Of a stretch of DNA of 64,000 bases, positions 9,501-12,500 are shown piece after piece. This DNA is from Rhynochetos jubatus (taxonomy: Eukaryota; Chordata; Aves; Eurypygiformes; Rhynochetidae). A program made the position numbers and the translations under genes. How positions within the stretch are numbered: position 1 is the stretch's first letter; every line of letters starts with the position of its first letter. The stretch lies in NCBI GenBank assembly GCA_027574665.1, contig CM050676.1:5756157-5820156 (forward strand), written 5' to 3'. The notes under the pieces are model-generated. The model worked only from the letters and a program-made list of their open reading frames with translations, made no database searches and was not told the origin of the DNA.

Positions 9501-12500
9501 AGAGCCCACGGCCCCGGTGATGGCCCAGCCAACTGGGTCTCAGCCCTCCCACTGTAACCGCCCTGCACCCCAGGCAACCCAAGCACCTACCAGCTCCTCA
9601 TTGTTCAAGGTGCTCGAGGCCAGTGCGGACGTGATTCCTGCTTTCCTGGACTGGACCAGGGACTGTGGGAAATAAACACAATTCCCAGATACAGCAGAGC
9701 ATGGGGTGTCCCTCCCGCACTCCTTTGGGGTCCCAGTGGCTATAAAAGGCCTGGGATGGGTGCCCACACCAGATAGGGGTGGGTGCTGGCTGTATGGGCT
9801 CCCAGTGCTGCCAGTGCTGCAAAGTGCCACCTCCCTCTGCAGTGGGTGGAACCAGCTCAGCAGCCCACGACATTCCCAATTCAGCCCTAACATGGCAGAG
9901 CCTCTCGAGGTATGTATGAGACCCCAGGGAAACTGGGGTGGGGGACACTTACCATTGCCTGCAGGAAGCCAGGGCCAGCAAGGGGGGAATAAAAGGCCAT
10001 TAGTGTGAGCCACCTCACAGCAGAGCAAGTCCTGGCCCCTTCCCTGCTGGAATGAGTGGGAATCGGCACAACACCAATCCCCCATCTAGCGACCAGCCAA
10101 TCCCTCCAGGATTTACTACCCCAAGCCACAGCACTGTCTGCCAAATCCCACCTAAGCGCTGCATTCTGTCCACCCCATCACCACCCACAACCCAACACCC
10201 ACACAGCACAGTGCAGAAGCATCAGCGGCTGCCCAAGCAGGCTGGGGTGTGGAGGACACTGGGGTGACAGCAGCAAGGGGGAGGCAGTGGGATGGGAGGG
10301 GGCAGGCAGGTTAGGGACAGGATGGAGGCACCCTGGGGAGGGTACCAAGTAGAGGCAGTGAGGTGTAGAGAGGGGGAGGGCGGCAAAGGGCACCTAATTC
10401 TGGGTACAAAGGGAGTCCGGTTTCCAAAGTTGCTGTCTCTTGTCACCAGGGGGGTGACAGCAGAGTGACCCTGTGCATTACAGCCCAGAGGCTGGACGGG
10501 ACACCAGCATCAGACTGGGCTAGAGCGACTCAGTGTGACAACAGTAGGGACAGGAGGATAGGGTCTGTGCAGCTCAGAAAAGCCAGCACTACCCCTCCAC
10601 TAGTACAGGGGTCCATCTGCCTGGCACCAGCGTGGTCCAAGATGCAGGGAGCCTATGGCAGGGGGGACAGGAAGGGACCAGGGATGCAGCACTGGTAAAA
10701 AAATAGGAAACCAGATGCAGCCCTGGGAAGCCTTGGGCTGATGCTTGGCATAGGGACAGGACCCTGGGGCTCCATTAAAGAGAAGCACCTTCAGGTGGAG
10801 AGAGCCAGGAGACCCCCAAAACAGCCTGGGACACCCCCGCCCCTTGCCAGTGGAGCTGCAGGAGGCTGGGCAGCACCCAAGGGTGCTCTCTCTTTAACCC
10901 CTCAGACCGCGCTCACCAGATCGCTGACAAGAGGGAGAGATTTGCGTCCAGGCTTAATGTCGGGCATGCTGTTAATGCAGCGCAGAAACCTTACTGCCGC
11001 CCGCCTGCCACCAGAGACGGCCCAGCCAGGCCGATGAAAAAAAAACAGAAAACACAAGCCATGTTAGAGGCAGCTGGGGAGCAGGGCACAGGTGTCCAGC
11101 AAGTGCCAGCCGGGGCAGGCAGGCAGCACAGTCCAGTGGGATGCAGCGGGAGCAAAGCTGGCAGCTGTGTGGTGCAAGGCATTAGGAGGAACCTCACCAA
11201 ATCGCTAACTAGGGGGATGGGTTTTCGCTTGCGTATGTCCGGCATGCTGTCTATAATGATCAGCCCACCACCAGGCCTGCAAGAGAGACGAGAGTCAGCG
11301 GGAAGGGGAAACTGAGGCAGGAAGGGGTCCCCTGATGTTGCTCCGTGTTTGCTTGTGACTTGGCATACACAACTGCAGAAATGGGTGTCCAACCTCCAGA
11401 TAGGACCCCCATCCCCACCACCACCCAAGCCAGGGCAGGGATCACTAGGCTAAAAACTGGGGGTGAAGGGCGTTCTGGTGGAAAGCTGTGATTTTCCCCA
11501 CATGAAGTTGTTTGGCTTCAGTGGTGTGACAGTGAAACACAGGAACAAAACAGCCCATGTGACTTCATTAGCTTTGCCTTTGCAGTGTGGAGCAGGATAG
11601 CTGGGGTTTCCCTCTGGGACACCCAAGGTGAGCATCAAGCCATTCTGCTGCAAGAGAAGTCGAGGCAGCACAGCACAGGCAGCAATGCTGCTTCGCCGCA
11701 TCCAGCCTGTCTGCAAGAGAACCCTGGCATGATCTGGGGGGTCTCAAGGAAACCTGGCAGGTTCTGCTGGGTCAGCAGCAGGGCCGCCTGCGAGGGCGAG
11801 ATAGGTTAAGACCCACAGCCTGTCCAAGTGAGAGGACAAGGGTTCCCCACAACACCACTTGAGCCCCCAAAGAAGTGGGAGCTGCCACCTCAGCTCAGTC
11901 CCATCCCAAACCCACTCACTTCCTCACTCTCCCCCTCAGCAGTGGCTCTTGGGGACATGGATCGGTGGCATCTCTGCTGGTTCCTCCAAAAGCACCAAGC
12001 AACCAGCATTCAGCCTAAAAATCTGGCTGCCCAGCGTGCCCATGGCTTGGCAACGCTTCCCCATGCCAGCCCTCCAACAAGCTCATTAATCACATCCTAA
12101 TGAGGAGGCGACAATAGCCCACGACACCCCTGGCAGGCAGAAAGTACAAGCTTCTCCACATACTCACCCGCCTTTGAACCACAGGGATTTAGCTTCTCCA
12201 TCGCCGTCCCCGCGGGCCTGCAAGACACAGAACGGCTGTCATGGGTGCAGGGCTGAGCCTCCGGCCCACACGGAGCCCTCCCTGGGTCTCAGCGCTGCTG
12301 GCAGCCCAGCACCCACTCAGCACCTGCAGCACTGGGGAAGCATATAACAGGTTTACAGGGTGGGCAGAGAGAAGCGTGTTCCCAACATGACAGGGCTCTT
12401 TCCAGCAAAGAGTTTGGGCTGTGACTAAAGTATCTTCAAGAGGCTGAGCTGAGCAAGCGGTGGGCAGGCTACAGCAGGGGGCTCGGGCTGGCAAAGCAGT

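Follow-up and report, generated by a model that had tools for sequence, protein, structure and literature searches.

A probable tandem duplicated exon pair, predicted to be mutually exclusive, ahead of the C1 domain in UNC13A of Rhynochetos jubatus

SNAP25 exons 5a and 5b are, according to the available text of PMC2581893, an old tandem duplication whose members are used in a mutually exclusive manner. OGDH exons 4a and 4b (available text of PMC7969005) offer a second parallel to the UNC13A exons 14a and 14b analyzed here, as a short intron lies between the duplicates and a U-rich tract precedes the second exon. Within UNC13A, a variable MUN loop within 1408-1452 belongs to another place of the gene than 14a/14b (available text of PMC5344669). 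The TDP-43-repressed cryptic exon of human UNC13A also occupies another place, as far as the available accounts of it go. To our knowledge, neither the MUN loop variant nor the cryptic exon is a duplicated exon before C1.

With supplements outside the scope, the word unc13 is absent from the available main texts of PMC5740500 on human mutually exclusive exons and PMC9741552 on substitutions in human tandem duplicated exons, and likewise from those of PMC9013439, PMC7561204, PMC3896118, PMC6952364 and PMC7969005. The available portions of PMC11406248 and PMC8983780 have UNC13A in the references only, and that of PMC10551640 mentions it only for the TDP-43 cryptic exon. Among the matches listed for open-licence PMC, no title or abstract start, which is the part that the listing holds, deals with the 14a/14b pair. 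Since the literature covered consists of open-licence PMC main texts, absence of the pair from print or annotation cannot be claimed.

The window, a stretch of 64,000 nucleotides from a genome assembly of 1.33 Gb in 148 contigs, carries UNC13A on its minus strand. Exon 14a, exon 15 and the C1 exon are 100, 100 and 97% identical (tblastn) to a sequence that we take to be human UNC13A, and the joined peptide aligns over its residues 71-161 with a solved Munc13-1 chain at an E value of 3e-58, so that the Munc13-1 C1 region and its surrounding exons are present, an identification made partly via the presumed human sequence. All UNC13A features described below lie on the minus strand. Exon 13, in the numbering of the sequence-only reading, spans 12168..12217, exits in phase 2 and ends in the donor CGG/gtgagt. 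Exon 14a (11198..11276, 79 nt) encodes 26 residues, all of them (26/26) equal to the presumed human sequence, and its acceptor and donor stand at the 99th and 98th percentiles of a splice-site score table with assumed frequencies. A 193-nt intron (11005..11197) separates it from exon 14b, a diverged duplicate of 14a with a core of 20 residues, which most likely spans 10917..11004 and has alternative in-frame starts at 10989 and 10968. Exon 15 (9591..9662) encodes 24 residues, and the C1 domain exon (9056..9275), which includes the residues after NEEL at the start of the helix H1 region, matches both the presumed human UNC13A and the solved Munc13-1 chain.

Between 14a/14b and exon 15 sits a microexon of 6 nt (9953..9958; GCAATG, Ala-Met) with good splice signals, and the reading frame holds with it included. 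As its length allows skipping without a frame shift, it may constitute a second splicing choice adjoining the exon pair.

Both related peptides proposed by the sequence-only reading are present as described, and the tandem exon duplication that it suggested is supported by their comparison. Against the intron that follows it, the 14a peptide reaches a best local score of 61, above all of 1000 dinucleotide shuffles (mean 25, maximum 45), and the next-best score among the other window segments scanned with 14a is 34. The two peptides share 14 of 19 aligned residues. Of the 19 aligned codons (the extra proline codon of 14b was left out), 6 are identical, 8 differ synonymously and 5 nonsynonymously, i.e. 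8 of the 13 differing codons are synonymous, and a neutral simulation of 18 random changes with the observed transition share kept at least 14 residues in 9 of 100,000 runs. The Nei-Gojobori estimates for 14a vs. 14b (pS 0.81, pN 0.17; both with the wide errors of a short 19-codon stretch) and the pN/pS bootstrap range of 0.05-0.43, with none of 2000 bootstraps at pN equal to or above pS, indicate coding constraint on the pair, the apparent strength of which is inflated because the 19 codons were picked for their likeness.

A self-copy scan within 2.5 kb of 18 UNC13A exons gave a strong neighbour for 14a alone, the other 17 scoring 22 to 39. Its input was 19 exons, of which one was exon 13 and the other 18 came from a set of 22 tblastn stretches (13338-13168, 7063-6842, 4445-4368 and 2649-2275 were left out), and x28 was then dropped for having no open frame; exons upstream of 13 lay outside the scan, and the second-best matches of x30 and x32 are unmasked pieces of other UNC13A exons. 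The first 80 nt past the two donors score 71, where shuffles average 48 and 1.8% of them do as well, a weak hint of likeness downstream of both donors for which the shared donor motif may be the source. In a DNA alignment, the 5' part of 14b together with the intron before it resembles its 14a counterpart no better than expected by chance (39% of shuffles as good). An alternative frame of this 5' part, ten residues that are Gly-rich like 14a, was rejected because it meets a TAA. The 14b peptide gave three weak matches among solved structures (E 0.055 to 0.11), with no UNC13 among them.

The C1 query located a close paralogue on each of contigs C48 and C15 of this genome; by their sequences we take the two to be UNC13B and UNC13C. 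Each has one exon homologous to 14a (that of UNC13C at C15:4273419-4273490), in the same place before exon 15, with the same phases as UNC13A 14a and in single copy as far as scanned; 17 of 19 residues equal 14a in UNC13B and 11 of 19 in UNC13C. The matches listed for a genome-wide search with 14a were three, one for each 14a-type exon; 14b itself was unlisted, which makes this query too insensitive to exclude other 14b-like copies. Within 30 kb of each paralogue (minus strand, score at least 30), no second copy stood clearly above chance; the scan holds the whole intron from the 14a-like exon to exon 15 in both, and possibly less than the whole of the preceding one. There the 14b query matched the 14a-like exon of each paralogue (56 in UNC13B, 48 in UNC13C) and, at scores that we attribute to chance, two further sites in UNC13B (32 and 30) and one in UNC13C (34), while the 14a query gave one extra match in each paralogue (33 and 32). 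The UNC13C match of 34 is a short CPLVSDL near C15 4288365, about 15 kb upstream of the exon. The calmodulin exon of UNC13B and UNC13C was not found in the 30-kb stretches scanned.

At the five residues that differ between 14a and 14b, UNC13B has the 14a state in all five, and UNC13C has the 14a state at two, the 14b state at one (Ser) and neither at two. By this comparison, 14b is probably the derived copy. Over 57 nt, 14a differs from 14b at 18 positions, from UNC13B at 16 and from UNC13C at 20; the two copies are thus about as diverged as the paralogues, which points to an old duplication. With synonymous sites saturated, and with pS to the paralogues lower for 14b (0.68 to UNC13B, 0.57 to UNC13C) than for 14a (1.09 and 0.84), synonymous divergence cannot order the events. 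The age of the duplication can be given roughly: it may have arisen within the UNC13A lineage, close to the divergence of the paralogues or later, or it may be older, with the extra copy lost from UNC13B and UNC13C. The retained protein likeness, taken with the single-copy paralogue exons, suggests that 14b is derived, old and has long been under coding selection. A serine (TCT) follows basic residues in both UNC13C (RRKKSFP) and 14b (KPGRKSLP), the position being occupied by proline in 14a and UNC13B.

We give a probability of about 70% to the reading that an exon of UNC13A was duplicated in tandem long ago and that the copies, 14a and 14b, are used as mutually exclusive alternatives. The same splice-site score table puts the donor of 14b (CTG/gtgagc) at the 99th percentile among 3161 GT sites. 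Its acceptor is less clear. The one claimed in the sequence-only reading, at 10989, is very weak (14th percentile of 4477 AG sites), and 11004 (90th) or 10968 (95th) is more plausible, with scores of 0.54 and 2.36 compared to 4.28 to 7.01 for five other acceptors. A branch-point-like CTCTAAC, whose A at 11064 is 60 nt from the acceptor, stands before a U9 tract (11045-11037), and the sequence from 11064 to the acceptor AG ending at 11005 is AG-free. An L..I(D/N)SMPD motif with the same in-frame spacing is common to 14a, 14b, UNC13B and UNC13C, the leucine of 14b standing three residues before the isoleucine of INSMPD, and this conserved spacing favours a start at 11004 or 10989 over one at 10968. 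The 5' edge of 14b nevertheless appears uncertain, as the leucine spacing favours the longer starts, whereas the misalignment of the DNA with 14a speaks against them.

These features bear on the possibility that 14b was long functional and recently lost its splicing in this lineage, its coding signature being a trace of past use. The weak acceptor and the 5' part that cannot be aligned to 14a would fit such a history, and pS and pN record summed history only; however, 14b retains a strong, intact donor and an open frame of the required phase, and its acceptor is still preceded by a branch-point-like site, a U9 tract and an AG-free stretch, so that we consider recent loss of splicing rather improbable. 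Use of 14b in RNA is likely.

The reading frame argues for exclusive use. With the shared end at 10917, exon 14b measures 88, 73 or 52 nt for starts at 11004, 10989 and 10968, and these lengths, like that of 14a, are all 1 mod 3; together with the exit phase of exon 13 they confirm the proposed entry in phase 2 and exit in phase 0. The frame is open into C1 when exon 13, 14a, the microexon and exon 15 are joined, and equally when 14b replaces 14a from each of its three starts. Using both exons shifts the frame, as had been claimed, and 14a joined to 14b (tested with the 11004 start) meets a stop inside 14b; with neither exon and the microexon kept, a stop falls in exon 15. The neighbouring exons thus have several properties expected of mutually exclusive tandem duplicated exons: sequence similarity, a common frame, compatible splice sites with a weak 14b acceptor, solo usability, and a premature stop when both (11004 start) or neither are joined in. 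The distance of 208 bp previously given between them holds for the 10989 acceptor only, the 11004 acceptor giving 193 bp. On the minus strand at 10991-11449, the frame of 14a contains no stop over 152 codons that cover 14a, the intron between the two exons and the beginning of 14b, which is probably an effect of base composition.

A motif scan for branch points yielded candidates at 11182, 11064 and 11035. In OGDH, exclusivity is due to steric block, the branch points lying within 25-41 nt of the 5' splice site (available text of PMC7969005); in UNC13A the best candidate, 11064, is 133 nt away from the 14a donor. A branch point within about 50 nt of the 5' splice site and with no AG before the acceptor is lacking here: 11035 is further still than 11064, and the near candidate 11182, at a distance of 15 nt, has AGs downstream of it at 11165, 11158 and 11074, the intervention of which makes steric block unlikely. 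Strong pairing of the kind expected from competing RNA structures was not found, the two inverted pairs being 73% and 87% complementary and 97 of 100 shuffles folding at least as well. The likeliest logic of exclusivity appears to be frame together with regulated acceptor use. Double or null products would be removed by nonsense-mediated decay, and the weaker, U-rich 14b acceptor would be the point of regulated choice. U9-type tracts are of the kind bound by PTB-type repressors. The tract before 14b may be bound in this way, with 14b included where repression is relieved.

The same arrangement could make 14b mainly a poison exon, whose inclusion with 14a shifts the frame and lowers the level of UNC13A. 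The stop after joint inclusion does fall within 14b, and splicing of 14a to 14b would be feasible across the 193-nt intron, in which the best branch-point candidate stands 133 nt away from the donor of 14a; but a poison exon needs no peptide, and selection kept that of 14b in frame for separate use, which makes this role improbable. Chance resemblance, although the sequences are short and chance matches of 34 to 39 occur, is very improbable in view of a score of 61 against a shuffle maximum of 45 and a next-best window segment of 34, and of the fit of phase and both splice signals. Judged from the genomic sequence, exon 14b is a genuine and old duplicate; it bears a signature of coding constraint, and its exclusivity is enforced by the frame.

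The swap would replace the basic RKRKPIP of 14a by KPGRKSLP, in which basic residues precede a new serine; this serine is a candidate phosphosite, perhaps in parallel to UNC13C. As had been proposed, the segment lies just before C1, shortly ahead of helix H1, and it ends nine residues before residue 529, the start of the crystallised C1C2BMUN fragment (available text of PMC5344669). According to the same text, helix H1 packs on MUN and linker helices, N-terminal sequences could act on MUN via helix H1, and the H1 mutations V549E and L554E raise release probability and lower phorbol-ester potentiation (PMC5344669). The accessible part of PMC11991699 has H1 (linker1) lying after the calmodulin site and before C1, and describes an inhibitory X region that contains the calmodulin site and linkers that are required for C1-C2B mutual inhibition. 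For the calmodulin site of bMunc13-2, adding the C1 region left calmodulin binding unchanged (available text of PMC7017353), a result that gives no support for an effect of the linker on calmodulin itself. The exchange of exons would alter the part of the protein that connects the calmodulin helix to helix H1/C1, and may thereby tune the N-terminal restraint of C1-C2B-MUN; the predicted outcome is a changed release probability or diacylglycerol potentiation, and not a change in core priming. With the pair, neurons probably have a choice between two forms of the region that leads up to C1, the lipid-sensing domain.

A more speculative extension, which we regard as doubtful, is that the pair is about as old as the vertebrate UNC13 paralogues, has been kept in some lineages and gone unreported, and switches the pre-H1/C1 linker between the basic RKRKPIP and the UNC13C-like KPGRKSLP with its phosphorylatable serine, which would let synapses set Munc13-1 restraint and diacylglycerol sensitivity at the RNA level. 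UNC13A governs vesicle priming as well as release probability. If genuine, the pair would provide a natural, testable variant between the calmodulin site and the C1-C2B-MUN block with which to address the N-terminal restraint of Munc13-1, and a splicing-based setting of UNC13A that did not turn up in the open-licence PMC searches.

In SNAP25 splicing is established; the exclusivity of the UNC13A exons is a prediction from the frame in genomic sequence. The two cases are alike in that SNAP25 5a/5b (available text of PMC2581893) and, probably, UNC13A 14a/14b are old duplicated exclusive exons in a gene of neurotransmitter release.
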